Below, piece after piece: positions 2,735 to 22,528 of a stretch of DNA of 64,000 nt. Numbering within the stretch: the first letter of the stretch is position 1; each line of letters starts with the position of its first letter. A model generated the notes under the pieces. The model was not told the origin of the DNA. It ran no database searches and worked only from the letters and a program-made list of their open reading frames with translations. The position numbers were made by a program, and so were the translations under genes. The stretch covers positions 1-64,000 of the forward strand of contig NZ_JACJSA010000008.1 in NCBI RefSeq assembly GCF_014697545.1, read 5' to 3'. This DNA comes from Oscillatoria sp. FACHB-1407. Lineage in GTDB: Bacteria; Cyanobacteriota; Cyanobacteriia; Elainellales; Elainellaceae.

Positions 2735-4186
2735 CTAAAACGCTGAACCATACACCAACGCCCCCACATCACACACCATCACCACCGCATCCCCCGTATC
2801 AGGCGATCGCCCCAAACGTTTCTTAATCTCTGCCTTCTCCTCCACCTGAATCCCCCGGAGTGATAGGAACCAACGCGGAGCAGTCAAGTCTCCCAACAGT
2901 TTTGGATGTGGCGGCAGAGCCAGCGTAGCCCCATGCTCAGGGTCTAACATCTCTCTCAGTTTCCAATACGCCTCAGCTCGCTTATTCACAAAGCCAAATT
3001 GACCGCTACGGGTTCTGAGAGCCGATGCTGTAGAACCATTAAAGGCGTAGGGCTGATGACCTAACCCCTTCAAATGGTCATGACAAGAAGACCCCCAACC
3101 TATGACATCGATGCTCATCCGAGCATTACCCTGTCGATGCTGTAAAAGCTTACTAGCAGCGGTTGCCCCATCTGGTGTGTCTTTGCCGGGATAACCCCAC
3201 AGAAACACATTATCCCCGTGTCTGGTGGCAATCACTGTCTCATCCGTTCCACCTCTGGCAATGTCACCCGCGATCGCATCCTGAAGAATGTTGCGGATTG
3301 TGGGCATCGTCTCGTTAGTCCTGGTAGGGTCATACCCCGCGCCCCACCGTTGCCGCCATCGGTCTTGAGCCAGTTCTACCCATGCCGTAGGAATCACCTG
3401 ATACGGGTCATCCTGCATGGATGAGGCGAAGTCTGTTAATGCCGCCAGCTCTGGAGGCAGATTGGCTAACAGGCGATCATACCCCGTCGCCATCAGTAGA
3501 GCGTTGTCAGAGGTTTTTGACAGGATAAAGCATCGACTCATAGGGGTGATGCCCTGCTGCGGTTCAGGTCCGTCCACCTCATCGCGCCCGATGTAATACC
3601 TCACCTCCCCACTCATGGCAGGTCTAGGATGTTTCTTGTCCAACCACGGAGCCAGATAAGAAATGATCCATCTCTGCTCTGGAGAAGTCGGAGGGTTGAA
3701 GCTACAGACCGTGCGGCACCGTTGCCCCGGTTCTGCTGTACGGTTCCAAGTCTTGATGTAGGTGTATTGCGTTTCTAGAAACTGATTCACCTCGTCAAAT
3801 GCCTTCAGGTCATGCGCTTGACCCTGGTATTTATATTTGCTGCTCTCATCCTTACAGCCGCCCAATTGGATGTAGCGACCATTCACCCTAAACTCATTCG
3901 TTGGGACACGCCCCGTAATCTCAGCCAGTCTCACCTTGATCGCCGCCAGGTCGAGCGCACGACGACGCAGAATCAGCGATCGCCTATGTTGGGTCAGAGC
4001 CAGTCCCAGGATGAGATCTGATTTACCACCGCCAGGACTACCCCCATAAAACAGTTCATCCGCAGGACAGTGATACGCCAACGACTGAGAACCCGGCTGA
4101 GGTTGCCACTCCAACGTGACCTTAGCTGGAAACAGTTCATCCAACTCACGCAATTTACGCTGAATTCTCTTCAGACCTGACGGCAT
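2735..4186 (-). CDS. phage-type terminase large subunit
   Basis: 483 aa, the usual length for large terminases. The N-terminal ATPase has Walker A GGSPGGGKS near residue 50 and a Walker B-like segment FDEVNQF near 132. The C-terminal nuclease (RNase H fold) begins with the DIARGGTDETV motif near residue 310, with a later acidic/aromatic block. The protein would drive DNA packaging into a procapsid together with a small subunit; the candidate small subunit is at 7386-7754, separated by cargo genes. No portal, capsid or tail gene is present, so it may serve a satellite that borrows helper capsids or be a prophage remnant. Starts at ATG 4186. Confidence 0.8.
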   Translation of the reverse strand: MPSGLKRIQRKLRELDELFPAKVTLEWQPQPGSQSLAYHCPADELFYGGSPGGGKSDLILGLALTQHRRSLILRRRALDLAAIKVRLAEITGRVPTNEFRVNGRYIQLGGCKDESSKYKYQGQAHDLKAFDEVNQFLETQYTYIKTWNRTAEPGQRCRTVCSFNPPTSPEQRWIISYLAPWLDKKHPRPAMSGEVRYYIGRDEVDGPEPQQGITPMSRCFILSKTSDNALLMATGYDRLLANLPPELAALTDFASSMQDDPYQVIPTAWVELAQDRWRQRWGAGYDPTRTNETMPTIRNILQDAIAGDIARGGTDETVIATRHGDNVFLWGYPGKDTPDGATAASKLLQHRQGNARMSIDVIGWGSSCHDHLKGLGHQPYAFNGSTASALRTRSGQFGFVNKRAEAYWKLREMLDPEHGATLALPPHPKLLGDLTAPRWFLSLRGIQVEEKAEIKKRLGRSPDTGDAVVMVCDVGALVYGSAF

Positions 4187-4225: not shown

Positions 4226-4699
4226 CTATCGGTTAAGACTTGGATCAACTCCTTCTAGATAGTTGTGGAGAACCCGATGTGCAGACTTGTGATCTCCTTT
4301 TGGAGTTAAGTTACACATCCACCAAATCAATTTACTTTGATAGCATCTTGGTCTATCGGTAGCAACTAATCGAGCGAGATGTTCGCAGTTCCAGCCAGTT
4401 AGTGTGTATTCCCAATCTTTGAAAACATATAAAGCATGTTTGAGCCTTTCAATAGTTTGCTTTGGCTCAAACACTATGTGGTCTACGTTGATCACAAACT
4501 TGGCATCTAATTTTGAAAATGGACGCAAGCCACGACCTGTATCAAAAATATGTGTATCTGACAGTCCTATCCCATAGTGCCAAAACGGATCGAGAGGATT
4601 CTGCCAATTGAGTAAGGAACCATATCGACGACTGGATGAGTCAGCAAAACGGTCTACCGCTTCTATTCGTTGTTCAATTTCTTCTTGAGAGAGTGACAT
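4226..4699 (-). CDS. LRAT-like (NlpC/P60 superfamily) protein
   Basis: 157 aa. Contains HYGIGL (about residue 41), a downstream HIFDTG, and NCEHLARLV (about residue 104). The order H, H, N-C-E-H is that of lecithin:retinol acyltransferase-like thiol enzymes, with the Cys of NCEH as nucleophile. Family members act as acyltransferases or lipases; in phage and mobile DNA they may be effectors. No signal peptide or membrane segment is visible. The gene lies 24 bases downstream of the glycine-zipper gene on the same strand and is probably co-transcribed with it. Identification rests on motifs only; the substrate is unknown. Confidence 0.55.
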   Translation of the reverse strand: MSLSQEEIEQRIEAVDRFADSSSRRYGSLLNWQNPLDPFWHYGIGLSDTHIFDTGRGLRPFSKLDAKFVINVDHIVFEPKQTIERLKHALYVFKDWEYTLTGWNCEHLARLVATDRPRCYQSKLIWWMCNLTPKGDHKSAHRVLHNYLEGVDPSLNR

Positions 4700-4723
4700 A
4701 AAACGACAAAGGCAGTGGGGGAC

Positions 4724-4975
4724 TTAGATCATGAAGACATGACCGCAAGAGGGGCAACGTGTAAATTTAGTAATTCCCAAGCTTGCTATTGTTCCACCGA
4801 TAATTGCTCCTGGTACAGTTCCAGCAATTGCTCCTAACGGTCCCATTGCTATTCCGACACCTGGCCCAAAGTAAGCTCCTACTGCTGCACCTGCTGCTGC
4901 CGCTCCAGTGGTAACAAGATGGTTGCTTGCTTCAAACTGGTTGCTGCATCTTGAACATACTACTTGTGCCATATT
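4724..4975 (-). CDS. glycine-zipper protein flanked by zinc-ribbon CxxC pairs
   Basis: 83 aa from ATG 4975, chosen because GAGGG lies just upstream; an in-frame ATG at 4999 would add eight residues. CSRC at the N-terminus and CPSC near the C-terminus can together form one zinc ribbon. Between them is a Gly/Ala-rich hydrophobic stretch (GAAAAGAAVGAYFGPG, then GAIAGTVPGAIIGG) with GxxxG spacing, typical of glycine-zipper membrane segments. The split of a zinc ribbon by a membrane hairpin is unusual. Sits upstream of, and likely in an operon with, the LRAT-like gene. Function unknown; a membrane-active partner is an inference. Confidence 0.55.
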   Translation of the reverse strand, partial: NMAQVVCSRCSNQFEASNHLVTTGAAAAGAAVGAYFGPGVGIAMGPLGAIAGTVPGAIIGGTIASLGITKFTRCPSCGHVFMI

Positions 4976-5647: not shown

Positions 5648-7363
5648 ATGGTAACGACCACTCCTGCTGCCGATCACGTTTCCACCGGAACAATTCCCTC
5701 ACTGACCTGGATCGATCAATTCGGAAGCTTACTCTCCGACGGTGCAACCAGCGTTGCCGTAGATGTCGCAGGCAATGTTTACATAGCCGGTTATAGCGAA
5801 GGTGAGTATGACCCTCGCAGACCCAGACCTACCCTCTACTACAACAACGACCTGTTCATCGTAAAGTACGACCGCAACGGTAATGAACTGTGGAGACAGG
5901 AACTGGGACACCTCAACTTAAGTGATCAAGCCAACGCGATCGCCGTTGATGGATTTGGCAACATCTACATCACAGGCTCAACCAATGACGCCTTACTAGG
6001 GTCTGGTGGAACCTCAGATGTCTTCCTGAAAAAGCTCAGCACGAACGGTAACATCCTCTGGGAAAAACAATTTGGTAGTTCTCGCAATGACACTGCCCGA
6101 GGCGTTGCAATCGATGCCACTGGCAACATCTACGTCACCGGAGAATTCGCAGGATACGGTAGCTTTAACCTGGGAAACGATAACGGCTTCCTGGCAAAAT
6201 ACGACCGCAATGGCAATCAACTCTGGGTACGAGAGACAGGCTTACCCAATAGCGATATTGCCTATGATGTTGCAGTTGATGCGGCTGGCAACATCTACAT
6301 TGCAGGCACAACAGGTGGCTCACTGCAAGGCACCACAGTTGGCTTTACAGACGCTTTTTTGATGAAGTATGACAGTGCAGGCAACGCTCTATGGCAGCAA
6401 AACTATGGAGGGAGTTACTCTGATGGTGCTCAAGGGGTTGCTATAGACTCTGCTGGAAATGCCTACATCACGGGGTATTCCCAATCTGGCATTGGACAGC
6501 CTAAAAACAGTTTCGTAGCCAAATACCGCAACGACGGTACTTTACTGTGGGCGAATACCTACAACTACTCAACCTCAAACGATCAGGCAACCGATATCGC
6601 AATTGATGCCACTGACAACATCTACGTCACAGGTCAGGCGTTCTACACCATCAGCGGTCTGCAAGGTGGCGATGATGATGTCTTTCTCTTCAGGCTTGAC
6701 CGAGATGGAAACTGGCTGGGTGACCACATTTTGGCAGCCCTGGGGACAGACCAACCCGGAAAACTAACAACCGATGTCTCTGGTAATGTCTACATTGCAG
6801 GCTACACCGAAGGAATATTCGGGGACGCCAGCGAAGGATACAACGATGCCTTTATCATCAAATTTGGTGCTAATCCCCTTCCAGTTAATCAGCTTCCATC
6901 CGAAGTTAATTCAACCCCTGGAGGTTCCTCCAATCCCATCCGGGGAAGTCGCAAACCCGAACGACTAAGCGGTACTGCTGACAACGACACCATTCTGGGT
7001 TTTGGTGGCAATGATCAACTGTTAGGAAATGCTGGAGACGATATTCTCAATGGTGGCGATGGCAACGATATCCTCCAGGGTGGAGCAGGTAACGATTATC
7101 TGAATGGTGGTAAAGGCAATAACCGGCTAACAGGTAACACAGGAAAAGATACATTTACCTTGACCAAAGATCGAAGGGCAGTAGATACCATTCAAGGCTT
7201 TCGCAACGGTGAAGACCAGTTTGACTTACCCCGTGGTGTCAGTTTTAGAGCGTTAGAGATTGTTCAAACAGGTAATCGCGTCACGCTCAGCTTCGGTAAT
7301 GACATCCTAGCCACCGTAACAGGCATAAGAGCGAATCAGATTAACGCGAGTGACTTCGTTTAG
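5648..7363 (+). CDS. SBBP-type beta-propeller protein with C-terminal RTX repeats
   Basis: 571 aa from ATG 5648, preferred to an upstream in-frame start at 5606 because ACGAGG precedes it. Residues ~20-400 hold seven to eight repeats with the D-A-x-GN-I/V-YI-x-G core typical of SBBP propellers. After a linker, residues ~450-500 carry RTX nonapeptides (GGNDQLLGN, AGDDILNGG, DGNDILQGG, AGNDYLNGG), followed by a C-terminal domain (TFTLTKDRRAVDTIQGF) common to type I secreted proteins. Expected to be exported and to fold on binding calcium outside the cell. It is on the plus strand between minus-strand terminase genes, so it looks like inserted cargo. Confidence 0.8.
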   Translation: MVTTTPAADHVSTGTIPSLTWIDQFGSLLSDGATSVAVDVAGNVYIAGYSEGEYDPRRPRPTLYYNNDLFIVKYDRNGNELWRQELGHLNLSDQANAIAVDGFGNIYITGSTNDALLGSGGTSDVFLKKLSTNGNILWEKQFGSSRNDTARGVAIDATGNIYVTGEFAGYGSFNLGNDNGFLAKYDRNGNQLWVRETGLPNSDIAYDVAVDAAGNIYIAGTTGGSLQGTTVGFTDAFLMKYDSAGNALWQQNYGGSYSDGAQGVAIDSAGNAYITGYSQSGIGQPKNSFVAKYRNDGTLLWANTYNYSTSNDQATDIAIDATDNIYVTGQAFYTISGLQGGDDDVFLFRLDRDGNWLGDHILAALGTDQPGKLTTDVSGNVYIAGYTEGIFGDASEGYNDAFIIKFGANPLPVNQLPSEVNSTPGGSSNPIRGSRKPERLSGTADNDTILGFGGNDQLLGNAGDDILNGGDGNDILQGGAGNDYLNGGKGNNRLTGNTGKDTFTLTKDRRAVDTIQGFRNGEDQFDLPRGVSFRALEIVQTGNRVTLSFGNDILATVTGIRANQINASDFV

Positions 7364-7385
7364 AAAATGGGGGGGCGATCGCCCA

Positions 7386-7754
7386 CTACTCACCCCCCTG
7401 CTGCCGTTGTTGAATCGCCGCCTGAATCACAAACACATCATTCAACGTCGCGATCGCCCCCGTTATCGCCTTCACCATATCAGGATTAGTCGTATCCCCC
7501 GTCCGTGCAGCACTGGCAATAAACCCGATCGCCAACTCCAACGAGTTTGGAATCTCCCCCACCCACTGACTTAATTTCTCGTTTGCCATCCTCCGAAACT
7601 CCCGCTGTAACTCCTCATCCACCTTCAGACGCGATCGCCATTGTTCGATCGTGCGGATGCTCACCCCAAATTCTATGGATACCTGCTTATCTGTTTTCAG
7701 TGTCGCCTCTACCAGAGCAGACGCAGCACGGACAACATTAAATCGTTTTGGCAT
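7386..7754 (-). CDS. HTH protein, putative terminase small subunit
   Basis: 122 aa. Residues ~20-45 (KTDKQVSIEFGVSIRTIEQWRSRL) form a helix-turn-helix of the kind that starts many small terminase subunits. The rest is helical and would fit an oligomerisation domain. It lies 4 bases from the upstream membrane-protein gene on the same strand and points toward the terminase large subunit gene. The assignment is by length, HTH position and context; a transcription factor is the alternative. Confidence 0.45.
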   Translation of the reverse strand: MPKRFNVVRAASALVEATLKTDKQVSIEFGVSIRTIEQWRSRLKVDEELQREFRRMANEKLSQWVGEIPNSLELAIGFIASAARTGDTTNPDMVKAITGAIATLNDVFVIQAAIQQRQQGGE

Positions 7755-8646: not shown

Positions 8647-8695
8647 CAGAGCTAAATTCTAGAGAGCATTAGTTCAAATGTATTTCCTCTTGCTC

Positions 8696-11107
8696 ATGAA
8701 ACCTCCTTTTGCTGCTCACACCCCTTCAAAAGATTCAGATACATGGCATGAGTTAAAATTCCACCTCAATAAGGTTGCAGCTTTAACCAAGCGATTTGCA
8801 GAGAAGTTTGGAGCAGGTGAGCTAGGACACTATGCTGGACTATGGCATGACTTAGGCAAATACAACCCCGCTTTTCAGAGATATTTAGAGCAGTGCAACG
8901 CAGCATCTCAAACAGGAGATGCAGAACCGCGCGATCGCGTCCCTCATGCAATCTATGGGGCAATTTTGGCAGATGAGATTTGTCCTACGGTTGCACCCTT
9001 AATCTACGGACATCATGCTGGACTACCTAATTACTCAGACCTCGACAGCATTCTGGGTAACTTTTTAGAAGAATCTAGAAACGAGGCAAACTATCAAAGA
9101 GTTTTAAATCTGGCAAGCCACGAGATAGAGACTGACCCAAAACAAAATTTTGAAACTCATCTTGAATCCCTAGGTGATGATAGTTTTGCCCGGGAGGTTT
9201 TTGACCGCCTACTATTTTCCTGTCTCATTGATGCCGATCGCTTAGACACTGAAGCATTTGACAATCCTGAACAAGCTGATATACGAAAAATTGAACGCCC
9301 TCAACTTCAGCAACTTTGGCAAACTTTTGACCGCAAACAGCAGGAGTTCATTAAGGAGAAGGAAACTCAAAACATCAATTCATCAGTATTTCAAGTTCGG
9401 CAGGAAGTTTATACTCACTGCTTGCGATCGGCTCTACAGGAACCGGGAATTTTTCGATTAACAGTACCGACAGGCGGTGGCAAAACGCTGAGTGGATTAG
9501 GATTTGCCCTTAAACATGCAACTCATCACAACGAGACAAAATCTGAATTGGAGATCAACTTTGAGCGAATCATTGTAGCAGTGCCTTACACCAGCATTAT
9601 TGAGCAAACTATCAAGGTGTATCGGAGTGTGTTTAAAGAACAATTTGGTGAGAACTCTGTACTAGAACATCACAGTGCAGTGAGGTCAGATTTACAAGCG
9701 GAGCAACAACCAAATGAGGAGAAGCAAGAAGAACTTGATGAAAGTGCAAAACGTGCCCAAAGGCAAGCTCGATTAGCCACTCAAAATTGGGATGCCCCTC
9801 TAATCGTGACAACAACGGTGCAATTATTTGAGAGTTTGTTCTCTCATCGCACCAGTAAATGCCGCAAATTACACAACATTGTTGGTAGCGTCATCATTTT
9901 GGATGAGGTGCAAACACTACCGATCGCCCTGCGAATTCCAATTTGCAGCATGTTGCAGGAACTGGTCAAACGTTACCATGTGTCTGTTGTTCTTTGTACC
10001 GCAACTCAACCTGTGTTGGAGGGTAACAATGGCTATTTCCAGGGATTTGACTCCAGTTTGATATACGATGTTATCCCACGAGAAGATGTTACAGAACATT
10101 TCAAACAGTTGAGGCGAGTAACCTACAACCTGTCATCAATTCAAACTAAAACACGGTGGTCGTGGACAGATCTAGCCAGTAAGTTAAGTACTCATGAGCA
10201 AGCCCTAGTTGTGTTAAACACTCGTAAAGATGCGCTGAGGGTTCTAGATGCACTCCACGTTCAAACTCCAGACACCCTTGATTCCTCCTGGATTGAAGAT
10301 AAAGTCAATCTCACACTTCAACACTGCCCCATATTGCATCTTTCAACTTTGTTATGTGGTGCTCATCGGCAAACTGTGTTAGACGAGATTCGCGATCGCC
10401 TTAGGCAAAATAAGCACTGCCTTCTGGTTTCAACTCAGGTAGTTGAAGCTGGGGTAGACCTCGATTTTCCAGCCGTTTACCGTGCATTAGGTCCTTTAGA
10501 TCGAATTGTTCAAGCAGCTGGACGTTGTAATCGTGAAGGCAGGTTAGAAGTCGATGGTGTAAAATTTGCTGGGCAGGTGACTGTTTTTGAATTAGAGGAA
10601 GGTAGTATTCCCAAAAAAGGTAGCGAATATGCTAAGGCAACTGAGATAACTAATAGCCTACTGCAACAAGCCACAGCTGAAGATCTCCATGACCCAACAA
10701 TCTTTCAGGCTTATGGACGCAGCCTTTACCAAATTGAGCATCCTGATAAACACAAAATTCAGGACGATCGCGCTGAACAAAACTATCGAAAAGTTTCTGA
10801 GAAGTTCAAGCTGATTGAAGACGAAACAATCCCAGTAGTCATACGTTACAACCAAGCTGTGCAAGAATTGCTCGATGAAATTCGCGATCGCGGATTGCTG
10901 TCCAGCGATCACCGTGCTCTCCAACCCTATGTTGTCAGTCTCCGCCAGTGGGAATTTCAGAAGCATCGCAACAGTATCCTAGAATGGCAACCTAACTTCT
11001 ATGTTTGGGACCACGATAAAAGCTACGACCCCATTCGAGGATTACCGTTAATGGGCGATCCAAGTGATGCTATTTTGCTACCTGTCGAGCTACTCACAAG
11101 TTTTTAA
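8696..11107 (+). CDS. cas3: Cas3 helicase-nuclease, type I-C
   Basis: 803 aa from ATG 8696 (in-frame ATG 8678 would add MYFLLL). The N-terminal HD nuclease domain shows HYAGLWHDLGKY and later GHHAGL. The SF2 helicase domain has Walker A PTGGGKT (about residue 260), DEVQTLP in place of DEAD (about 400), TATQPVL, and the late motif AAGRCNREGR. Cascade recruits Cas3 after target binding; it unwinds and degrades invading DNA. The gene is separated from the rest of the cas genes by a 355-base region holding a CRISPR-like guide and a promoter, so cas3 and the effector genes are likely controlled separately. Confidence 0.95.
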   Translation: MKPPFAAHTPSKDSDTWHELKFHLNKVAALTKRFAEKFGAGELGHYAGLWHDLGKYNPAFQRYLEQCNAASQTGDAEPRDRVPHAIYGAILADEICPTVAPLIYGHHAGLPNYSDLDSILGNFLEESRNEANYQRVLNLASHEIETDPKQNFETHLESLGDDSFAREVFDRLLFSCLIDADRLDTEAFDNPEQADIRKIERPQLQQLWQTFDRKQQEFIKEKETQNINSSVFQVRQEVYTHCLRSALQEPGIFRLTVPTGGGKTLSGLGFALKHATHHNETKSELEINFERIIVAVPYTSIIEQTIKVYRSVFKEQFGENSVLEHHSAVRSDLQAEQQPNEEKQEELDESAKRAQRQARLATQNWDAPLIVTTTVQLFESLFSHRTSKCRKLHNIVGSVIILDEVQTLPIALRIPICSMLQELVKRYHVSVVLCTATQPVLEGNNGYFQGFDSSLIYDVIPREDVTEHFKQLRRVTYNLSSIQTKTRWSWTDLASKLSTHEQALVVLNTRKDALRVLDALHVQTPDTLDSSWIEDKVNLTLQHCPILHLSTLLCGAHRQTVLDEIRDRLRQNKHCLLVSTQVVEAGVDLDFPAVYRALGPLDRIVQAAGRCNREGRLEVDGVKFAGQVTVFELEEGSIPKKGSEYAKATEITNSLLQQATAEDLHDPTIFQAYGRSLYQIEHPDKHKIQDDRAEQNYRKVSEKFKLIEDETIPVVIRYNQAVQELLDEIRDRGLLSSDHRALQPYVVSLRQWEFQKHRNSILEWQPNFYVWDHDKSYDPIRGLPLMGDPSDAILLPVELLTSF

Positions 11108-11133: not shown

Positions 11134-11203
11134 ATAGCATTGCCTCTTAAGGCAGTGAGGATTGGAACATCTCAACGTTAGCTGACAGTGTACTTTGTCA
11201 AGT
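11134..11203 (+). ncRNA. degenerate CRISPR repeat plus spacer: CreR/CreA-like guide RNA
   Basis: Bases 11134-11168 align with the array repeat. TAGC near the 5' end is kept, the stem is replaced by a different but still paired hairpin (ATTGCC, loop TCTTAA, GGCAGT), and the 12-base 3' handle GAGGATTGGAAC is identical. A spacer-like sequence starts at 11169 (ATCTCAACGTTAGCTGACAG...). Its first 11 bases match the site at 11323-11333 at 10 of 11 positions, and that site has the PAM TTC directly 5' (11320-11322). Type I-C Cas5 could process the RNA at the handle. A hairpin near 11211-11245 followed by TTTT may end the transcript. Known precedents are CRISPR-resembling RNAs that guide Cascade for repression. 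Presence of the RNA itself is inferred. Confidence 0.75.
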
Positions 11204-11310
11204 TAAAGAGGACGGGGGATACGACCGATTGCGGTACGGTCTCCCATGTTTTATCTACCACTGACACAGAGTACAAGACTGATACCATGTACTATTCTTG
11301 CGGCTCCAGT

Positions 11311-11357
11311 GTTCCAATCTTCATCTCAATGTTGCTGAATTGTCTTATCAAGTAAAA
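11311..11357 (+). promoter_or_regulatory. Cascade target site (PAM TTC + seed match) upstream of a cas-operon promoter
   Basis: TTC at 11320-11322 is followed by ATCTCAATGTT, matching the guide seed (mismatch only at position 8). After one inserted base in the guide, GCTGA also aligns. The site ends a few bases before the -35 box at 11364, so bound Cascade would block RNA polymerase. The PAM-side bases 11311-11322 (GTTCCAATCTTC) are also the reverse complement of a repeat handle with one change (GAAGATTGGAAC). Confidence 0.7.
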
Positions 11358-11363
11358 ATGAAA

Positions 11364-11393
11364 TTGACATCTTTCTCTGAAGAAAGCTATAAA
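11364..11393 (+). promoter_or_regulatory. sigma-70-type promoter of the unknown gene and cas5-cas2 operon
   Basis: TTGACA at 11364-11369, 18-base spacer, TATAAA at 11388-11393; the strongest promoter-like match near the cas genes. Transcription would start near 11400, giving a ~60-base leader with a small hairpin (TCTC-TTAC-GAGA, about 11411-11422) before ATG 11463. Confidence 0.7.
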
Positions 11394-11462
11394 AAAAGAG
11401 GGAGCAACGATCTCTTACGAGACGACCCCCTTTCGTAAATATTATTCTTCCTCAATTGAACC

Positions 11463-11777
11463 ATGAAAACCGCGCTACTGCCAACTCTGGACAACTCCAA
11501 CGGGAATACTCAATCGCTGCTTGTTTATCGTCAAGGAAGTTGGTGTCCTAATCCTGAGCTCTTACCTCAAATTGGTCAAGTTACCAAAACCTACACAACC
11601 AAACAGGTGCAGGACTTATTAAACCTGCCCAATCCAGCACCCTTATACGCTGCCAAAAAGACGGGGTTGCCCTACCTACACCCAGTAGCAGATATAGAGT
11701 CAAATTGTGTTGCTGTTGCAGCAATCAAGCGGAATACCTGGATCGTTTCCAATCCTTTTAACCTCAATTTCTGCTAG
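11463..11777 (+). CDS. unknown 104-aa protein between cas3 and cas5
   Basis: 104 aa, no family recognised. Residues ~43-75 (YTTKQVQDLLNLPNPAPLYAA, then KKTGLPYLHP) resemble the helix-turn-helix of MerR/excisionase-like proteins, which would make it a DNA-binding regulator. There is no good Shine-Dalgarno before ATG 11463. It is the first gene after the promoter that the CRISPR-like guide appears to target and is followed by a strong hairpin (11804-11833) before cas5. It may be a cas regulator, an accessory protein, or the toxin-like gene held off by the guide. These are inferences. Confidence 0.5.
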   Translation: MKTALLPTLDNSNGNTQSLLVYRQGSWCPNPELLPQIGQVTKTYTTKQVQDLLNLPNPAPLYAAKKTGLPYLHPVADIESNCVAVAAIKRNTWIVSNPFNLNFC

Positions 11778-11803: not shown

Positions 11804-11833
11804 AGGAGGTTAGGGCATAGGCACTGACCTCCT
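11804..11833 (+). other. hairpin between the unknown gene and cas5
   Basis: AGGAGGTTAG (11804-11813) pairs with CTGACCTCCT (11824-11833), a 10-bp stem with one wobble and a 10-base loop. It hides a GGAGG. No T-run follows, so it is more likely an attenuator, RNA-processing or stability site than a full terminator. Confidence 0.5.
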
Positions 11834-11873: not shown

Positions 11874-12593
11874 ATGTCTAATGATTCCTTACTCAGTTTG
11901 AGGGTGAGGGGCGATTTTGCCTTATTTACCCGCCCAGAGTTTTCGGCTGAAAGGGTTACCTATGATGTCCCCACACCCAGCGCAATGCGAGGCGTGTTGG
12001 AGGCAGTGTTCTTTAAACCTGAGATATGTTGGGTTGTTCATGAGATCCATGTCCTAAACTCAATCCGCTACTTCTCGTTGTTGCGAAATGAAGTGAATTC
12101 TCACCAGAATGAACGCACCGCTCGCACTTGGGAGAACAGTGGGACAGGTGGTTATTACGCTGATGAAGATCGTTCGCAACGTCATGCCCTATGCCTGCGT
12201 AATGTGGATTACTTAATCAAAGCCGAGATTCGGCTCAAGCCTCATGCGGACGCTCACCCCGCTAAATATCGCGATCAGTTCCGACGACGGGTTGCTAGAG
12301 GGCAGTGTTATTACCAGCCCTACTTAGGGACGCGTGAGTTCAGTGCCTTCTTCAGCGAACCCGACGGCACTGAAACCCCCATTGACGATTCCCGTGATCT
12401 GGGATTGATGTTGTTCGACATGGAAATCACCGAGGCAACAGATGGTTCAATGCTGTATCTCAGTCACAGTGTTAACGGTGCCAGAGTTACAAAAGGCAAT
12501 GCTCAACCGAAATTTTTCCCAGCTCAACTACAGCAAGGCATTCTCAAAGTACCAACGCAGTTGTATCAGCGAGGAGAAGTCTTATGCTCCTAA
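11874..12593 (+). CDS. cas5c: Cas5 (type I-C, crRNA-processing)
   Basis: 239 aa from ATG 11874; a TTG-initiated extension from 11847 is less likely. The N-terminus (SLRVRGDFALFTRPEFSAER) and the YDVPTPSAMRGVLEAVF segment are typical of Cas5c/Cas5d. Type I-C has no Cas6, and none is seen here, so Cas5 should cut the pre-crRNA at the repeat hairpin and stay on the 5' handle. Overlaps cas8c by 10 bases. Confidence 0.93.
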   Translation: MSNDSLLSLRVRGDFALFTRPEFSAERVTYDVPTPSAMRGVLEAVFFKPEICWVVHEIHVLNSIRYFSLLRNEVNSHQNERTARTWENSGTGGYYADEDRSQRHALCLRNVDYLIKAEIRLKPHADAHPAKYRDQFRRRVARGQCYYQPYLGTREFSAFFSEPDGTETPIDDSRDLGLMLFDMEITEATDGSMLYLSHSVNGARVTKGNAQPKFFPAQLQQGILKVPTQLYQRGEVLCS

Positions 12594-14413
12594 AGCAGCT
12601 GTATGACCTGTCTCAACGCCCAGACATTAAAGCAAAATTGCCAATTGAAGGATATAACCTGGTTCCAGTAAAGTGGTTGGTTCATATTGACCTCGAAGGT
12701 AACTTCATCCGGTTTCAGGAGTTGGGCGATCGCGAAAAACGCATGGTTCCCGATTGTAAACGTTCATCGGGCATTAAACCCAAACTCTTAGCAGATAAAG
12801 GGGACTATGTGTTTGGCTATGCCGAAGCTGATGCACCTGCTGACAAAGTGGCAGAACGACATCGGCAGTTTAAAGCTTTAGTGCAGCAATGTGCTGAAGT
12901 GACACAAAATCCCAATGTTCTTGCAGTAGCTCGGTTTTTGGCAAAGTGGAACCCCGCTATAGATAATGCCAAATTAGTGGAGCAGAAGATTGAACCATCA
13001 CAAGTGTTGACCTTTTGTGTGAACCATCTAAACCATCCTGATTTTGATACGGTCATTCCCGCAGATGCTCAAGCTGGAGACGCTCAAGCTGGTTTATCAA
13101 CCGTGCAAAGCTTTTGGTCAAGTCAATTAACTGGCGAGGATTCTGATTCAGACCAGCGTGCAGTCATGACTTGTCTAGTGCTCGGTAATGACCCGCGCCC
13201 AGTTGAGGAACGGCTACCTATCTCAATCAAAGGCATTCCTAATGGACAAACTTCAGGAACGGCACTAGTTTCTGCAAACGCGGCACCCTTCACATCCTAC
13301 GGTCTGAAGAACTCTCTTACATCGCCTATTTGTCGAGAAGCGGGTGAAGGTTTTGGGAAAGCGTTGAATTATTTACTAGCAACAGAAGACTCTAGATTTA
13401 TCTTGAATAATGACGTTGCATATGTTTTTTGGACGCAGCATACCACACGCTTTCGAGCAGCAACATACAAAAATGACCAACCAAGTAAAATTCGCAATGT
13501 TTTAGTTAAAGCAATCAAAGGCGAAAAACGATTAGCACGGCTACAGGCAAATCGTTTTTATGCAGCCGCGTTAACTGCTAGTGGCGCACGAGTAGTCGTG
13601 CGGGATTGGATTGATACGACTTTGCACAATGCAATTGTCAACTTAGTTAATTGGTTTGACGCTCAAGATTTGGTTGATTCTTTTGGTGAGATTGATGACC
13701 AGCGGCGCTACTTGAGCATTTATCGGTTATCCCGTTGTCTATACCGCGACCCTAGTAAAGAAGACATTGCCCGCATCACTACTCGCTTAATGCACGTTGC
13801 GATTGCAGGTGGCACACTCACCCATGAAATGTTAGTACAACTCGTCAAACGCAATCGTGCTGAGAGAGAAGTGACGCGCGATCGTGCGGCTCTAATCAAG
13901 CTGATTCTTACTACTCAACTGAAAACTCCAGAGGAGAACCCAATGGCTGACATGCATTGTCTTAACCCAGACCCTCAATTCAAAAATCCACTCGACCGAG
14001 CAGCTTACCATTGTGGGCGATTACTAGCTCAATTGGAGCAAGTTCAATCTCAGGCATTGGGACGGGACGTGAACGCCACTTTAATTGATCGTTTTTATGG
14101 AGCAGCTTCTGCTACGCCAGGAAAAGTTTTAGGAAAACTGGTCGAAGATGCTCAACCTCATCTGGCACGTATTCGCAAGGATAGACGGGGAACCTACGAA
14201 GCTCTCCAGCAAAAGTTAGAAGACATATTGTGCAACATTTCTCCTGAATCTGGATTATTTCCCAATTCATTGAATAGTCAACAACAAAGCATTTTTGCCC
14301 TCGGTTACTATCATCAGCGTGCTCAAAATCGCAAAGATGCTAAGGATGGAGCAACAACTAGGAAGCAAGCTCAAACCGAATCTGATGACACTTTCGAGAC
14401 CAATCCAGAATAA
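12584..14413 (+). CDS. cas8c: Cas8c (Csd1), large Cascade subunit
   Basis: 609 aa, typical length. The start MLLKQLYDLSQRPDI resembles other Csd1 proteins. GAGGAG at 12571-12576 precedes ATG 12584. Cas8c recognises the PAM and recruits Cas3. The final ~156 residues are also translated separately as Cas11 from an internal start (13943). The sequence ends in a short low-complexity basic/acidic tail. Confidence 0.93.
   Translation: MLLKQLYDLSQRPDIKAKLPIEGYNLVPVKWLVHIDLEGNFIRFQELGDREKRMVPDCKRSSGIKPKLLADKGDYVFGYAEADAPADKVAERHRQFKALVQQCAEVTQNPNVLAVARFLAKWNPAIDNAKLVEQKIEPSQVLTFCVNHLNHPDFDTVIPADAQAGDAQAGLSTVQSFWSSQLTGEDSDSDQRAVMTCLVLGNDPRPVEERLPISIKGIPNGQTSGTALVSANAAPFTSYGLKNSLTSPICREAGEGFGKALNYLLATEDSRFILNNDVAYVFWTQHTTRFRAATYKNDQPSKIRNVLVKAIKGEKRLARLQANRFYAAALTASGARVVVRDWIDTTLHNAIVNLVNWFDAQDLVDSFGEIDDQRRYLSIYRLSRCLYRDPSKEDIARITTRLMHVAIAGGTLTHEMLVQLVKRNRAEREVTRDRAALIKLILTTQLKTPEENPMADMHCLNPDPQFKNPLDRAAYHCGRLLAQLEQVQSQALGRDVNATLIDRFYGAASATPGKVLGKLVEDAQPHLARIRKDRRGTYEALQQKLEDILCNISPESGLFPNSLNSQQQSIFALGYYHQRAQNRKDAKDGATTRKQAQTESDDTFETNPE
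13943..14413 (+). CDS. cas11c: Cas11c small subunit from an internal start in cas8c
   Basis: An in-frame ATG at 13943 (Met454 of Cas8c, MADMHCLNPDPQF) is preceded by GAGGAG at 13931-13936 with a 6-base spacer, the same hexamer used for cas8c. It would give a helical protein of 156 aa. Type I-C, I-B and I-D systems are known to make Cas11 in this way, so the internal site is expected; here it is plainly visible. Confidence 0.8.
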   Translation: MADMHCLNPDPQFKNPLDRAAYHCGRLLAQLEQVQSQALGRDVNATLIDRFYGAASATPGKVLGKLVEDAQPHLARIRKDRRGTYEALQQKLEDILCNISPESGLFPNSLNSQQQSIFALGYYHQRAQNRKDAKDGATTRKQAQTESDDTFETNPE

Positions 14414-14465: not shown

Positions 14466-15383
14466 ATGACTTTGCATACCAATCCTGAGCTACGGCATGA
14501 CTTCGTGTTGATCTTTGATGTAACAAATGGCAACCCAAATGGTGATCCGGATGGAGGCAACTTACCTCGCACCGATCCAGAAACGATGCGGGGTTTAGTT
14601 ACGGATGTGTGTCTGAAACGGAAGGTCCGTAATTATGTGGATATCTTATATGGTGAACATGAGACTACCAAGATCTACGTACAAGATCATGGGATTGCAT
14701 TAAATGAGATGAATGCTCGTGCATACAAAGCTTTGGGCATTAAATCGACTGGCACTAAGCAAAAACGTGAGGATGTCAACAGTGCTCGTGACTGGATGTG
14801 CCAAAACTTCTTTGACGTGCGAATGTTTGGTGCAGTGATGAGTACAGGAGTGAATTGTGGACAGGTACGCGGTCCTGTACAACTCACGTTCTCTCGCTCT
14901 ATTGATGCGATTATGCCCTTAGATGTCACTATCACTCGTCTGGCAATTACTGACCCCAAAGATGCAGAAGTAGTAATTGGCGAGGATGAGAAGGCAAAAT
15001 CAGGTGGAAAAACCTCTACGATGGGGCGTAAAGCGATTGTGCCTTACGCACTGTATGTAGGCTATGGTTTCTACTCCCCTCACCTGGCAGCCCAAACAGG
15101 AGTCACCGAAAAAGACTTAGAACTGTTTTGGGAAGCACTCGTCAAAATGTGGGAGTTCGATCGCTCTGCCAGTCGTGGCATGATGGCTCCCCGTGGATTG
15201 TATGTCTTCTCCCATGACAACAAACTCGGTCGCGCCCCAGCCCATAAACTCTTTGAACGCATCCAAATCCCACCCCTTCAAGAGCAGGGCATTGTTCCCC
15301 GGCAGTTCACAGATTACAGCGTTCAAGTAAACGAACAAGACCTACCCGATGGTGTCACCCTCACTCGCTTAATTGAGGGTTAA
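14466..15383 (+). CDS. cas7c: Cas7 (Csd2), Cascade backbone
   Basis: 305 aa from ATG 14466, with GGAGA at 14456-14460; an upstream TTG at 14454 is in frame but less likely. The N-terminal RRM-like start HDFVLIFDVTNGNPNGDPDG (about residues 11-30) and the later MSTGVNCGQVRGPVQL are typical of Csd2. Several copies coat the crRNA. Confidence 0.94.
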   Translation: MTLHTNPELRHDFVLIFDVTNGNPNGDPDGGNLPRTDPETMRGLVTDVCLKRKVRNYVDILYGEHETTKIYVQDHGIALNEMNARAYKALGIKSTGTKQKREDVNSARDWMCQNFFDVRMFGAVMSTGVNCGQVRGPVQLTFSRSIDAIMPLDVTITRLAITDPKDAEVVIGEDEKAKSGGKTSTMGRKAIVPYALYVGYGFYSPHLAAQTGVTEKDLELFWEALVKMWEFDRSASRGMMAPRGLYVFSHDNKLGRAPAHKLFERIQIPPLQEQGIVPRQFTDYSVQVNEQDLPDGVTLTRLIEG

Positions 15384-15387
15384 CCGT

Positions 15388-16011
15388 GTGGAACTTGATG
15401 ACTACGTTCTCATCAGTGCCCTCCAGCATCATGCCTATTGCCCTCGTCAGTGTGCGTTGATCCACGTCGAGCAAACCTTTGACGAAAATCTCTACACCTT
15501 GCGGGGGCATCGAGTTCACGAAACTGTCAATATTCCTGAATACGAGTTGATTGAAGGGGTCAGGGTTGAACGTGCCCTCCCCCTTTGGTCCCATCGATTG
15601 GGGTTAACAGGCATTGCGGATGTGGTGGAGTTTTATGTGGATGGCACTCCTTATCCCGTGGAATACAAATCCGGTCCACGCAAACCCCGTGAAGCAGACG
15701 AACTTCAACTATGTGCTCAGGCAATCTGTCTAGAAGAAATGACAGGTCACTCAGTGCCAACTGGAGCTATCTTTCACCACGCCTCCAGGCGACGGCGTGA
15801 GGTGCAGTTTGGTGATAAGTTGCGATCGCTTGTTGTCAAAACGACACAGCAAGTTCGAAGCTTACTCGCAACTGCCCAGCTCCCCCCACCTGTTGCAGAT
15901 GAACGCTGTCCAGATTGCTCTCTCATCGAAACCTGTATGCCCTACGCCATCACAGCGTTTACCCGTGTAAGCCAAGCTAATGACCTATTTCGCATAGAGG
16001 GTGATGCATGA
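15388..16011 (+). CDS. cas4: Cas4 Fe-S exonuclease for spacer acquisition
   Basis: 207 aa from GTG 15388, chosen because GAGGG (15375-15379) sits 8 bases before it. Cys residues in AYCPRQC near the N-terminus and CPDCSLIETC near the C-terminus would hold a 4Fe-4S cluster. GIADVVEF and PVEYKSG form the PD-(D/E)XK nuclease core. Cas4 trims prespacers and selects PAM-proximal ends with Cas1-Cas2. Overlaps cas1 by 4 bases (ATGA). Confidence 0.93.
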   Translation: MELDDYVLISALQHHAYCPRQCALIHVEQTFDENLYTLRGHRVHETVNIPEYELIEGVRVERALPLWSHRLGLTGIADVVEFYVDGTPYPVEYKSGPRKPREADELQLCAQAICLEEMTGHSVPTGAIFHHASRRRREVQFGDKLRSLVVKTTQQVRSLLATAQLPPPVADERCPDCSLIETCMPYAITAFTRVSQANDLFRIEGDA

Positions 16012-17039
16012 AACAACTCCTGAATACCCTCTACGTCCAAACTCAGGGCACCTATGTTCATCTTGACCACGATACGCTCAGGCTCGAAGTTGAACGCAGC
16101 ACTAAATTTCAGATGCCTCTACACCACCTGGGAAGCATTGTCGTTTTTGGCAATGTTCTAGTCAGTCCATTTCTGATTCATCGCTGTGCCGATGATGGAC
16201 GCGATCTCGTTTGGCTTTCTGAATACGGACGGTTTAGAGCAAGGTTATCCGGTTCAACCACTGGCAATGTGCTACTACGGCGATCGCAACACGCAGCACT
16301 CGATAATGCTGATTCCACTCTGCTCATTGCCCGTCATGTTGTGGCAGGCAAGCTGCAAAATGCTCGCAGTGTCCTAATGCGAGCGGCACGAGAAGCCAAC
16401 GATGAGGGTGATCGCGCCGCTTTGTCCAAAGCAGCTAAAGTTCATGCCGATGCAATTCGAGGCACAGAGCAAGCAGAAGACCTTGAAAAATTACGAGGTA
16501 TCGAAGGGTACGCTGCTAAAGCTTACTTTGCCGCCTTTACCCCCATGATCCGCACGAATCGTACCGCATTTGCACTAACTGAGCGATCGCGCCGACCACC
16601 CCGCGATCCAATTAATGCACTGCTTTCGTTTGTTTACACGTTGCTCGTAGGGGAATGTATTGCAGCTTGTGAAGGGGTTGGATTAGACCCCCAAATGGGA
16701 TTCCTTCATGCACTTCGCCCTGGTAGACCTGCACTGGCACTTGACCTGATGGAAGAACTGCGAAGTCCACTAGCCGACCGTTTAATCCTGACTCTAATTA
16801 ATCGAGGGCAGATTAAGCCGGATGATTTTATCGAACGACCAGGCGGAGCAATTCATCTCACTGAAGACGCTCGAAAAGCCTTACTTAATGCTTACCAGAA
16901 ACGAAAGCAGGAAGAAGTCTTACACCCTGTTGTTGGTTCTAAAACTCCATTAGGATTAATCGCTCATGTCCAAGCCCGTTTGCTAGCACGACACCTGCGA
17001 GGCGATCTACCGACTTATCAACCATTCGTTCAACGTTAG
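16008..17039 (+). CDS. cas1: Cas1 integrase of CRISPR adaptation
   Basis: 343 aa, usual length for type I-C. The metal-binding residues are visible as E in LRGIEGYAAKAYF (about 165), H in GFLHALRPGRP (about 233) and the acidic DLMEE (about 246). With Cas2 it inserts spacers at the leader end of the array. Translationally coupled to cas4. Confidence 0.95.
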   Translation: MKQLLNTLYVQTQGTYVHLDHDTLRLEVERSTKFQMPLHHLGSIVVFGNVLVSPFLIHRCADDGRDLVWLSEYGRFRARLSGSTTGNVLLRRSQHAALDNADSTLLIARHVVAGKLQNARSVLMRAAREANDEGDRAALSKAAKVHADAIRGTEQAEDLEKLRGIEGYAAKAYFAAFTPMIRTNRTAFALTERSRRPPRDPINALLSFVYTLLVGECIAACEGVGLDPQMGFLHALRPGRPALALDLMEELRSPLADRLILTLINRGQIKPDDFIERPGGAIHLTEDARKALLNAYQKRKQEEVLHPVVGSKTPLGLIAHVQARLLARHLRGDLPTYQPFVQR

Positions 17040-17051
17040 ACTCTAATCCTT

Positions 17052-17342
17052 GTGAACATCCTTGTCGCCTACGATGTCAATACTGAAACTCCAGCAGGTA
17101 AACGTCGCTTGAGAAAAGTGGCTACCGTTTGCAAAAATTATGGTCAACGGGTTCAATTTTCAGTGTTTGAGTGCCAGCTTGATGAAGCTCAATACGAGGC
17201 ATTTCAGGCACAGTTAGTTAAAATCATCGACCCAAAGCTTGATAACCTCCGCTTCTACAGACTGCCGAATCCAAGAGAGCAGCATATTAAGTGCTATGGC
17301 ATAGATAAGTATGTCGATTACAATGACACCCTCATTGTTTAA
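17052..17342 (+). CDS. cas2: Cas2
   Basis: 96 aa from GTG 17052. The MNILVAYDVNTET start has the conserved Asp of the Cas2 ferredoxin fold, with RVQFSVFEC later. Dimer that bridges two Cas1 dimers. Last cas gene, 12 bases after cas1 and 174 bases before the array. Confidence 0.95.
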   Translation: MNILVAYDVNTETPAGKRRLRKVATVCKNYGQRVQFSVFECQLDEAQYEAFQAQLVKIIDPKLDNLRFYRLPNPREQHIKCYGIDKYVDYNDTLIV

Positions 17343-17516: not shown

Positions 17517-20500
17517 GTAGCGTTCAGCCTTCGGGCTGGACGAGGATTGGAACTCTTCCATTGCTGCCCAAAACTCAGGGTTTTCATTGCGTAGCGTTCA
17601 GCCTTCGGGCTGGACGAGGATTGGAACAATCCCTACTCTCACATCCAATGATGCAGGGTTGAGCGTAGCGTTCAGCCTTCGGGCTGGACGAGGATTGGAA
17701 CTTGTTCAACCAGGCGATCGCGCAGAGCACGGGCTTGGTAGCGTTCAGCCTTCGGGCTGGACGAGGATTGGAACAGGGTCAAGTTCGGTTAGCAGTCGAT
17801 AGGGCACAATGTAGCGTTCAGCCTTCGGGCTGGACGAGGATTGGAACTAGTAAGACCTGTCGGTACTGGCAAGAAACACTCTGTAGCGTTCAGCCTTCGG
17901 GCTGGACGAGGATTGGAACAGAGCCACTGGACGAGGTAGGCGCGTACATGGAAAGGTAGGTAGCGTTCAGCCTTCGGGCTGGACGAGGATTGGAACTTTA
18001 GAGGCACGTCAGGTACACCCAAGGACTCAATGTAGCGTTCAGCCTTCGGGCTGGACGAGGATTGGAACTTTGCAATCCTGGTAGCGCAATTGGACGCACT
18101 ACTTGTAGCGTTCAGCCTTCGGGCTGGACGAGGATTGGAACTAGTAGCTGTGAGAAGTTGTAGCCCATTGACTGGAGTAGCGTTCAGCCTTCGGGCTGGA
18201 CGAGGATTGGAACCCTTGCTCATAAAGCTGAACCAGATCCTGCCAGCAGGTAGCGTTCAGCCTTCGGGCTGGACGAGGATTGGAACTTGATAGAAGAGTT
18301 GCTCAAGCTAATGTGCAACCGTGTAGCGTTCAGCCTTCGGGCTGGACGAGGATTGGAACTCTTCAACAGGTGTGTCAGCGACAAATAACATCCCGTAGCG
18401 TTCAGCCTTCGGGCTGGACGAGGATTGGAACTTGAGCGATTCTCAGTTCGTTGCGTGCTGAATCAAGTAGCGTTCAGCCTTCGGGCTGGACGAGGATTGG
18501 AACCTCCTCATGGGCTTCGACGACCTGCGTGGGAGCAAGTAGCGTTCAGCCTTCGGGCTGGACGAGGATTGGAACTTGCCCCTTGCCTAGTTGTTGCTCT
18601 ACTTCTTCCGTAGCGTTCAGCCTTCGGGCTGGACGAGGATTGGAACAGGTGAGTTGCTGCCAGGTTCCCAAGTTGCAAAGGTAGCGTTCAGCCTTCGGGC
18701 TGGACGAGGATTGGAACAGTCGGATGTGGCACGTCAAACCAGGAGCCAGGTCGTAGCGTTCAGCCTTCGGGCTGGACGAGGATTGGAACAATCATGATAA
18801 GACCTCGATGGCATTAAAAACAACCGTAGCGTTCAGCCTTCGGGCTGGACGAGGATTGGAACATCTGATAGGCACAACCTGCCTCCCCATTGCCCGGGTA
18901 GCGTTCAGCCTTCGGGCTGGACGAGGATTGGAACAGAGGTTTGTTTTCCTGTGTAGTCGTCGGGATCTGCGTAGCGTTCAGCCTTCGGGCTGGACGAGGA
19001 TTGGAACTTCTTTGCGCTTGTCATGGCGTTAGACTCCCACCAAGTAGCGTTCAGCCTTCGGGCTGGACGAGGATTGGAACATGATCGCCGCTTCACTCGT
19101 TGCCCCAGTATCAGGTAGCGTTCAGCCTTCGGGCTGGACGAGGATTGGAACTGGATAGTAGACAAACAGCAACGGGTGCAAGACGTGTAGCGTTCAGCCT
19201 TCGGGCTGGACGAGGATTGGAACAGTCCCAAACATCTCTTGCCATAGTCTCAGCAAGTAGCGTTCAGCCTTCGGGCTGGACGAGGATTGGAACCTTGTGC
19301 GTCCTGGTATCCCAGCACATTAGTCAGGTAGCGTTCAGCCTTCGGGCTGGACGAGGATTGGAACAAATTGTGTTTGCGAGGATTGTCGGGGAAGTTGGCA
19401 GTAGCGTTCAGCCTTCGGGCTGGACGAGGATTGGAACTGTGATGATGACCTACGAGCCAAAATTGAACCGGGTGTAGCGTTCAGCCTTCGGGCTGGACGA
19501 GGATTGGAACACTTCAATCATGCTGCACACTCCTCCTCATACTTGGTAGCGTTCAGCCTTCGGGCTGGACGAGGATTGGAACCTTTAATTAACTCAAATC
19601 GATGTGGCTCCTGAAGTAGCGTTCAGCCTTCGGGCTGGACGAGGATTGGAACCATCGTGACTTCGATTTCAGGCAGTTCGATCGATGTAGCGTTCAGCCT
19701 TCGGGCTGGACGAGGATTGGAACAAGAAGTGCTTGCGCGACCTCTTCGCCTTCGGGTAGCGTTCAGCCTTCGGGCTGGACGAGGATTGGAACTAGAATCC
19801 CTGATGGCATGGCAAAACTCCCCCAGGTAGCGTTCAGCCTTCGGGCTGGACGAGGATTGGAACACAACTTAAAAACCGCACTGCCGCAGGGGTTTGAGGT
19901 AGCGTTCAGCCTTCGGGCTGGACGAGGATTGGAACCCTGATTTCAGTAAAACCCTCGCAGTACCACTGTGTAGCGTTCAGCCTTCGGGCTGGACGAGGAT
20001 TGGAACAATGTCACGAGTAAACCTGCCTTTTTGCAACTCAAGGATGTAGCGTTCAGCCTTCGGGCTGGACGAGGATTGGAACCATCGGATGTGCCAGAAG
20101 GTGAAAGAGTTGTCTTAGTAGCGTTCAGCCTTCGGGCTGGACGAGGATTGGAACAGGTCAAGAAATGGAATTACAGTGTGTTTCAACTGGTAGCGTTCAG
20201 CCTTCGGGCTGGACGAGGATTGGAACCTATTAAACGCGATCGCCCCCAAATGGTAAAGCTGGTAGCGTTCAGCCTTCGGGCTGGACGAGGATTGGAACTA
20301 CATGTCCTGTTTCGTAGTTCAGTTGTGGGCGGCAATCGTGTAGCGTTCAGCCTTCGGGCTGGACGAGGATTGGAACAGGGGTGATGGGGGCATCAAACAC
20401 CCAATAGCTGGTAGCGTTCAGCCTTCGGGCTGGACGAGGATTGGAACCAGTTCTTCGCGGTCAAGAATTGGCTCCCCATCTGTGTAGCGTTCAGCCTTCG

Positions 20501-21319
20501 GGCTGGACGAGGATTGGAACTCTGCATCAACTTCAAATTCCTCATAGCCAACATTCCGCGTAGCGTTCAGCCTTCGGGCTGGACGAGGATTGGAACTTTG
20601 TTGATGTGTTGCGAGTACTTCAGCAGTTGCGTAGCGTTCAGCCTTCGGGCTGGACGAGGATTGGAACCTTTACCAAAAGCCCAAGTATTCTGTAGCACTC
20701 CTGTAGCGTTCAGCCTTCGGGCTGGACGAGGATTGGAACTCGCTTTTCAGAATGGCGAGATTAGAGCACTGATGTAGCGTTCAGCCTTCGGGCTGGACGA
20801 GGATTGGAACCTATTGTCGCGATCGCTCCAGAATGTACTATTACGGTAGCGTTCAGCCTTCGGGCTGGACGAGGATTGGAACAGGGCATGGCGAAAGACC
20901 ATCTTCGGCAACTCGTCGAGTAGCGTTCAGCCTTCGGGCTGGACGAGGATTGGAACTGACCCTTATCACCCTTCAATCCAGGTCTACCTTCAGGTAGCGT
21001 TCAGCCTTCGGGCTGGACGAGGATTGGAACTTATCACCCTCAAATTGCACCGGGGTATCGGGCTTGTAGCGTTCAGCCTTCGGGCTGGACGAGGATTGGA
21101 ACAACACCACTTCAACATATTGGGTCAAAACCAAGGTAGCGTTCAGCCTTCGGGCTGGACGAGGATTGGAACTCAACCCTTCCTTGCTCGCTCCAATTCC
21201 CGGACTGATGTAGCGTTCAGCCTTCGGGCTGGACGAGGATTGGAACATTTCCGTGCGATCACGCCATCCATGGAGCACCCGCGTAGCGTTCAGCCTTCGG
21301 GCTGGACGAGGATTGGAAC
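17517..21319 (+). CRISPR. type I-C CRISPR array, 53 repeats and 52 spacers
   Basis: 37-base repeat: 5' GTAGC, then GTTCAGCC and GGCTGGAC as an 8-bp stem (one wobble) around a TTCG tetraloop, then the 3' handle GAGGATTGGAAC. I located 53 repeat starts from 17517 to 21283, mean spacing 72.4 bases, spacers about 32-38 bases. Repeats look identical, including the last, so no decayed trailer end is seen. The ATTGGAAC 3' end and cas-side leader set the orientation as plus. No spacer was recognised in this window by eye. Confidence 0.97.
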
Positions 21320-21871: not shown

Positions 21872-22528
21872 TCAATTTCTGAGAACCGCGCTGAGTGTCG
21901 AATTCTGAAGTAAACGATACTCCACTCGTCGCTCCACCGCCACAAGCCCCCCATCCTGCAACCGGGTTAACACCCGCTTTACCGTCCTAACATCGATGCC
22001 CAATCTTGTAGCAATCTTCGCATCACTCAAATCACCATCCTGGTTTTGATGCAGTAACGCCAGCACCCTCAGTTCAGCGCGAGTTAAGTCAGAGTTGAGC
22101 AGGAGGTCAATAACAGGATCAGGTGAGGAAGTGGGAATAGGGGATGGGTAACGAGTGGCATATCCTCCAGTTTTACGAATGGAGGGCAGGACTTCGTGGA
22201 ATACCCAACGTCGAAACGCTTTAGCTCCTGGCTTACGAGATGTGAAAACTAGACGGTAAAGACCCGGTTCAGTGACCGTTAAAAATGGCTGAGGTCGATT
22301 AAGGGCATCGGTAATAGCTATATTACCCTCAGCCAGAGAATAATATCCCTTCTCGTCATCATCAAAATTTGCCAGGGCATCACTAACATTTTTTATCCCC
22401 AGAACAGCCGCCACATCTTGAGCAATCCATTCTGGGTTATCTAAATTGCCATTCCAGCGAATCTCGTAATTCTCAAACGCGCCAAACAGAGCGACCCCTT
22501 GCGGGTATCTCGGAGAAATCGCATTCAT
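21872..22528 (-). CDS. BRO-N antirepressor with C-terminal winged helix
   Basis: 218 aa. Residues ~12-115 match the BRO-N domain pattern (WIAQDVAAVLGIKNVSDAL, LTVTEPGLYRLVFTSRKPGA, FRRWVFHEVLPSIRKTGGY). Residues ~145-205 form a winged helix (DGDLSDAKIATRLGIDVRTV). BRO/Ant proteins lift repression in phages and mobile elements. Two bases separate it from the upstream gene on the same strand; GAGGAAT precedes ATG 22528. Confidence 0.8.
   Translation of the reverse strand: MNAISPRYPQGVALFGAFENYEIRWNGNLDNPEWIAQDVAAVLGIKNVSDALANFDDDEKGYYSLAEGNIAITDALNRPQPFLTVTEPGLYRLVFTSRKPGAKAFRRWVFHEVLPSIRKTGGYATRYPSPIPTSSPDPVIDLLLNSDLTRAELRVLALLHQNQDGDLSDAKIATRLGIDVRTVKRVLTRLQDGGLVAVERRVEYRLLQNSTLSAVLRN

Follow-up and report, generated by a model that had tools for sequence, protein, structure and literature searches.

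The type I-C CRISPR-Cas locus of Oscillatoria sp. FACHB-1407 probably encodes a CreR-type cas-regulating RNA, a crRNA-like guide with which Cascade would repress its own operon. Because the same design recurs in nine other loci with different guides and targets, we regard RNA-based feedback control of the CRISPR proteins as very probable. The locus lies inside the 64-kb stretch of this 8.13-Mb genome that we analyzed (the window). NCBIfam models identified cas3-cas5c-cas8c-cas7-cas4-cas1-cas2 with I-C models and an operon without cas6. The order is cas3, a gap of about 770 bases that holds one 104-codon ORF, cas5-8-7-4-1-2 and then a 53-repeat array, with the following features:

8678-11107 (+), cas3 with HD and helicase domains, upstream of the module (NCBIfam TIGR01587, TIGR01596)
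11134-11168 (+), degenerate repeat (psi-repeat): stem 11138-11145/11150-11157, loop CTTA, 11-nt handle AGGATTGGAAC at 11158-11168
11169-11185 (+), psi-spacer guide core ATCTCAACGTTAGCTGA
11214-11245 (+), hairpin 3' of the psi-spacer (folding)
11320-11338 (+), target: PAM TTC at 11320-11322, then ATCTCAATGTT-GCTGA at 11323-11338
11364-11393 (+), putative promoter TTGACA (11364-11369)-N18-TATAAA (11388-11393) (sequence, alignment)
11397-11432 (+), 5' UTR hairpin ahead of the small ORF (folding)
11463-11777 (+), small ORF (104 aa) of family F1; helix-turn-helix core and beta wing predicted
11874-12593 (+), cas5c (TIGR01876)
12584-14413 (+), cas8c (TIGR01863)
14466-15383 (+), cas7 (TIGR02589)
15388-16011 (+), cas4 (TIGR00372)
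16008-17039 (+), cas1, I-C model (TIGR03640)
17052-17342 (+), cas2 (TIGR01573)
17517-21319 (+), CRISPR array, 53 repeats of GTAGCGTTCAGCCTTCGGGCTGGACGAGGATTGGAAC

The initial annotation had described 11134-11168 as a degenerate copy of the array repeat with a replaced but paired stem and an intact handle; its coordinates were right and folding confirmed the structure. Relative to the array repeat the stem letters are replaced in pairs, and the resulting 8-bp stem directly abuts the 11-nt handle. The shape is that of the 37-nt array repeat, with a folding energy of -10.9 kcal/mol for the psi-repeat versus -15.9 kcal/mol for the array repeat. Across the related loci described below, nine of eleven psi-repeats have the stem immediately adjoining the 11-nt handle, with base pairs that vary between loci. 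A strong hairpin follows the psi-spacer on its 3' side in all eight loci folded (the window and seven relatives), and the one at 11214-11245 is probably the 3' end of the guide RNA. Four other exact copies of the handle occur in the genome outside the array; these were rejected as further psi-repeats, because none of them has a stem like that of the repeat directly next to the handle. The sequence GTTCCAATCTTC at 11311-11322 is an inverted copy of the handle (11/12 identical) that overlaps the target PAM and ends exactly with it. About 0.0026 such copies are expected by chance in a gap of this kind, as judged from the shuffle rate. We rejected a second, inverted repeat at this place, since it has no stem and, by reading, no equivalent beside the other targets, and treated the copy as chance or a relic.

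The guide core matches a site in the same gap. Positions 11169-11179 (ATCTCAACGTT) are identical to 11323-11333 at 10 of 11 bases, and the site is preceded by TTC, both as the initial annotation had claimed. Its further statement that the match ends after the seed was wrong: provided that guide nt 12 has no partner, guide nt 13-17 (GCTGA) equal target positions 11334-11338, so that potential pairing continues through nt 17. Pairing thus covers guide nt 1-5, 7-11, and 13-17, with nt 12 unpaired and one mismatch at nt 8 (C against A). TTC followed by ATCTCAANGTT occurs once in the whole 8.13-Mb genome, at the target site. The observed score of 14/15 in the gap was reached by none of the 188 real array spacers and by none of 20,000 random 17-mers from the window, and the match is therefore more than chance.

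Searches with Cas8c and Cas5c yielded a set of type I-C loci, ten of which contain the module, consisting of handle, guide, TTC, and matching site. Besides the window these are eight cyanobacterial loci, L015 (genome G416), L055 (Alkalinema RU_4_3), L056 (Synechococcales bin59), L062 (uncultured cyanobacterium), L083 and L044 (two Chamaesiphon), L054 (Spirulina), and L061 (Spirulinaceae), and one from Rubrobacteraceae (L047, Actinomycetota). Guides and promoter sites vary among the ten loci, yet they agree in sequence within each of them, and the PAM is TTC in all ten. When eight guides were cross-scored against eight gaps, the result was a diagonal matrix. A comparison of related I-C gaps had been proposed in the initial annotation; it found handle, seed match, and TTC kept together in ten loci with guides and targets covarying, which argues for that annotation's central claim of a CreR/CreA-like guide RNA aimed at the adjacent cas promoter. 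In the cyanobacterial loci, handle and target share a strand, and the distance from the handle to the downstream target start is 67-154 nt. L047 has an apparent two-repeat mini-CRISPR before cas3 (2554-2700). Its guide matches a TTC site 75 nt upstream of it, in the region preceding the mini-CRISPR itself, except at nt 1, 6, 12, and 17; this suggests that the design extends past cyanobacteria.

An identical scan with reversed handles gave no match. Complemented handles matched at one place, in L082, which we read as array sequence, and scans with PAMs other than TTC returned repeat remnants or single stray matches. A search of viral contigs yielded three distant Cas5 proteins and no psi-guide, no cyanobacterial record was among the Cas5 matches listed for the plasmid collection, and further draws of whole genomes brought no additional module.

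Agreement between guide and target follows a positional rule. Over guide positions 1-17, the numbers of matching loci among the ten were 9, 10, 10, 9, 10, 2, 9, 9, 10, 10, 9, 1, 10, 10, 10, 8, and 7. Positions 6 and 12 were matched in 3 of 20 cells and all other positions in 140 of 150 (Fisher 8e-14, an indicative value because the loci are partly related). A score that ignores nt 6 and 12 had been used to detect L056 and L047, and L044 was first recognized by eye, gaps being allowed at these positions. The six loci detected by counting matches over nt 1-11 without gaps are unbiased from nt 12 onward; among these, nt 12 agreed in 0/6 and nt 13-15 in 6/6. Within Cascade, the crRNA has one flipped-out base in every six (PMC5904413). 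The haloarchaeal I-B CreA, which also uses TTC, needs pairing at nt 1-5 and 7-11, not at 6 or 12 (PMC8501985), and the guides reported here show the same 1-5/7-11 pairing; the Acinetobacter I-F CreA depends on nt 2-5, 7-9, and 13-17 and leaves nt 6 unpaired (PMC10097628). Together with the flipped-out bases and the CreA precedent, the pattern at nt 6 and 12 indicates that the sequences record selection for pairing inside Cascade and do not simply resemble each other. The target base is missing altogether in three loci, opposite nt 12 in the window, nt 6 in L015, and nt 6 (or 5) and 12 in L044. We found no report of targets lacking a base opposite nt 6 or 12 in the open literature.

The module is not essential, as at least 11 cyanobacterial I-C loci are without it. 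In loci without the module the distance from cas3 to cas5 is mostly 12-150 bp (larger gaps occur in L038, L046, L052, and L063), indicating that it is the module that sets cas3 and the Cascade operon apart. Its distribution on the Cas5 tree is patchy, and in the sister pairs L083/L063 and L054/L052 the block is present or absent between conserved ends. L057 has kept the psi-repeat; no target was found there and the small ORF is missing.

A small ORF lies downstream of the target in every intact cyanobacterial locus, and these ORFs belong to at least two unrelated families. Family F1 comprises the ORFs of the window, L044, and L056, and in L055 a copy with an in-frame stop. An AlphaFold2 model built from three sequences predicted a helix-turn-helix core with a beta wing for F1 (pLDDT about 83-87 over residues 41-70), and Foldseek gave no significant fold match in the PDB. 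Family F2 (L015, L062, L083) is predicted to form one long helix. F3 (L054, L061) is a weak pair with 23% identity and may not be one family. Pfam gave no match for F1 or F3 and weak, sub-threshold coiled-coil-like matches for F2. A match of the 104-codon ORF in genome G093 was rejected as spurious, because it lies inside a thioredoxin-like gene. One F1 homologue is encoded outside any CRISPR locus (L125, 6813-7085, 90 aa); it adjoins a 1024-codon gene with a helix-turn-helix-like start.

These ORFs bring in the main competing explanation, a guard of the CreTA or CrePA type, in which the guide RNA would silence a small ORF that is harmful once Cascade is lost or blocked, with any effect on cas genes secondary. 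A tally made by hand, which ignores kinship, counted an intact small ORF in eight of the ten cyanobacterial guide-RNA loci (the nine with a target, and L057) and in 0 of 11 lacking the guide RNA. L055 and L057 kept the guide RNA with the small ORF broken or missing, and the reverse was never seen. This co-occurrence, with unrelated families standing after the target, indicates that the small ORF belongs to the module and favors a guard, as does the fact that I-F loci are known to carry guard modules at this same place, between cas3 and the effector genes (PMC10097628). However, the co-occurrence may only reflect a block gained or lost as a unit. None of F1, F2, and F3 has a toxin or KilA-N match, and F1 is helix-turn-helix-like by prediction and has a homologue away from CRISPR. 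Moreover, the small ORF ends about 10-30 bp from cas5 in L083 and L062; it is almost joined to cas5, and the repressed transcript therefore most likely includes cas5. CreTA resembles the present module in that CreA also lies in a cas intergenic gap, but CreT is a tiny RNA toxin, whereas the ORFs here have 61-104 codons and conserved protein sequence and are followed by cas genes on the same strand. As summarized in a review (PMC12737573), CrePA (Shu et al. 2025) likewise places a crRNA-like RNA upstream of a protein gene and is possibly regulated by Cascade; its CreP typically carries a KilA-N domain, unlike F1, F2, and F3. We consider a guard unlikely. L063, which has no module, retains a remnant of a small ORF.

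The putative promoter TTGACA-N18-TATAAA is present at 11364-11393 with the target just before it, as originally annotated; our consensus promoter scan, which demanded T as the last base of the second hexamer, did not list it. The protospacer starts 41 nt (window), 52 nt (L044), and 47 nt (L055) before TTGACA, and in these F1 loci it thus lies just upstream of the -35 box and not on it. A 5' UTR hairpin folds at the corresponding place in L044 and L055. A protospacer upstream of the -35 box may repress less or act otherwise, which speaks against a CreR-type repressor, as does the unpaired base at nt 8 of the window seed. Cascade with its RNA might instead aid transcription or merely fine-tune it, and the spacing of 41-52 nt in the three F1 loci would suit this. 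By inspection, however, the F2 and F3 target sites overlap the likely promoter itself, and we know of no Cascade-guided activator in nature, which makes activation or fine-tuning highly improbable. Between the small ORF and cas5, at 11804-11833, there is an inverted repeat with 13-nt arms that are 85% complementary, possibly a terminator or attenuator; this hairpin may point to some separate transcription of cas5, a further point against the CreR reading.

A decayed repeat or a self-matching spacer without function would account for a psi-repeat that is degenerate and solitary, and for single loci such as L057 that hold a psi-repeat without a target, but covariation over ten loci and the rule at nt 6 and 12 cannot arise in this way and the stems are kept by paired changes, so we give decay even less credence than activation. 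A decoy that mimics the repeat and sequesters Cas proteins, like the phage Racr RNAs, would fit one repeat-like element outside the array and can practically be dismissed, as it needs no guide-target match, the most conserved relation here, and the element sits in the host's own cas locus.

For the preferred reading, a CreR-type repressor, we infer transcription, processing, binding, repression, and a response to the crRNA level as follows. An RNA would be transcribed across 11134-11245 and cleaved by Cas5c at the foot of the psi-repeat stem, leaving the 11-nt handle. Cascade loaded with the psi-guide would bind the TTC-flanked site 11320-11338 through guide nt 1-5, 7-11, and 13-17. Placed at 11320-11357, adjoining the -35 box, it would hinder RNA polymerase at the promoter, and transcription of the small ORF and cas5-8-7-4-1-2 would drop. 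The chromosome would remain uncut because a hybrid of at most 17 nt would be too short to engage Cas3. The E. coli I-E Cascade has maximal affinity with a match of up to 18 bp and needs extensive pairing for interference (PMC5904413), a difference that fits binding without cutting by so short a hybrid. Free Cascade would thereby keep its own production down. Repression would be relieved when array crRNAs or anti-CRISPRs occupy or disable the complex.

According to open reviews (PMC12737573, PMC12948488, PMC13131331), CreR (Liu et al. 2023, Cell Host Microbe 31:1481) has been reported for subtypes I-B, I-E, and V-A, and the I-C case is therefore a variant of a known regulator. As described there, CreR is a crRNA-like RNA inside the cas locus with a degenerate repeat and a limited PAM-proximal match to the cas promoter. 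The loci studied here likewise combine a degenerate repeat that has a stem and the system's own handle, a limited PAM-proximal spacer match with the correct PAM at a cas promoter predicted from sequence, and a design conserved across loci with covarying guide and target. In contrast to CreR as covered by these reviews, the subtype is I-C and processing would be by Cas5c, not Cas6; most loci have one psi-repeat and a hairpin in place of a second repeat, a small ORF stands between target and cas5, and some targets lack the base at nt 6 or 12.

Type I-C and cyanobacteria would thus join the range of Cascade-guided self-control, and the ten covarying loci offer natural cases of how much pairing may suffice for binding without cutting. 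A wider and tentative idea is that guide RNA, Cascade-repressed promoter, and a small lineage-specific protein acting as a second sensor or guard form a cassette that is gained and lost as a unit and, in cyanobacterial I-C loci, splits cas3 and the Cascade operon from each other, and that Cascade reads joined 5-mers at targets without a base opposite the flipped-out nt 6 and/or 12. We found no description of Cascade tolerance for target deletions in the open literature; the missing-base targets (window nt 12, L015 nt 6, L044 nt 6 and 12) make its tolerance at the kink positions directly testable, and the role of the small proteins linked to the module becomes directly testable as well.

Several other elements were observed in or near these loci. 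Directly past the CRISPR array of the window, 21872-22528 (-) encodes a protein with a BRO-N domain and a winged helix, and a scan of the start region of this gene for a guide gave no good match. KilA-N is a phage-derived domain, like BRO-N. CreP toxins are said to bear a KilA-N domain in the review cited above (PMC12737573). L061 has a second degenerate repeat with the handle GAGGGTTGAAAC just before cas5 (4815-4868), for which no target was detected. Two loci that lack the guide RNA, L046 (4308-4919) and L038 (about 6980-7600 in the gap region, -), encode between cas3 and cas5 a protein of roughly 200 aa that resembles a restriction enzyme on visual inspection and has no Pfam match. By reading, a HicA/HicB-like toxin-antitoxin pair lies in the cas3-cas5 gap of L055 (about 3320-3900) and of L057 (about 4310-4930, -), where it occupies the place of the promoter and small ORF.
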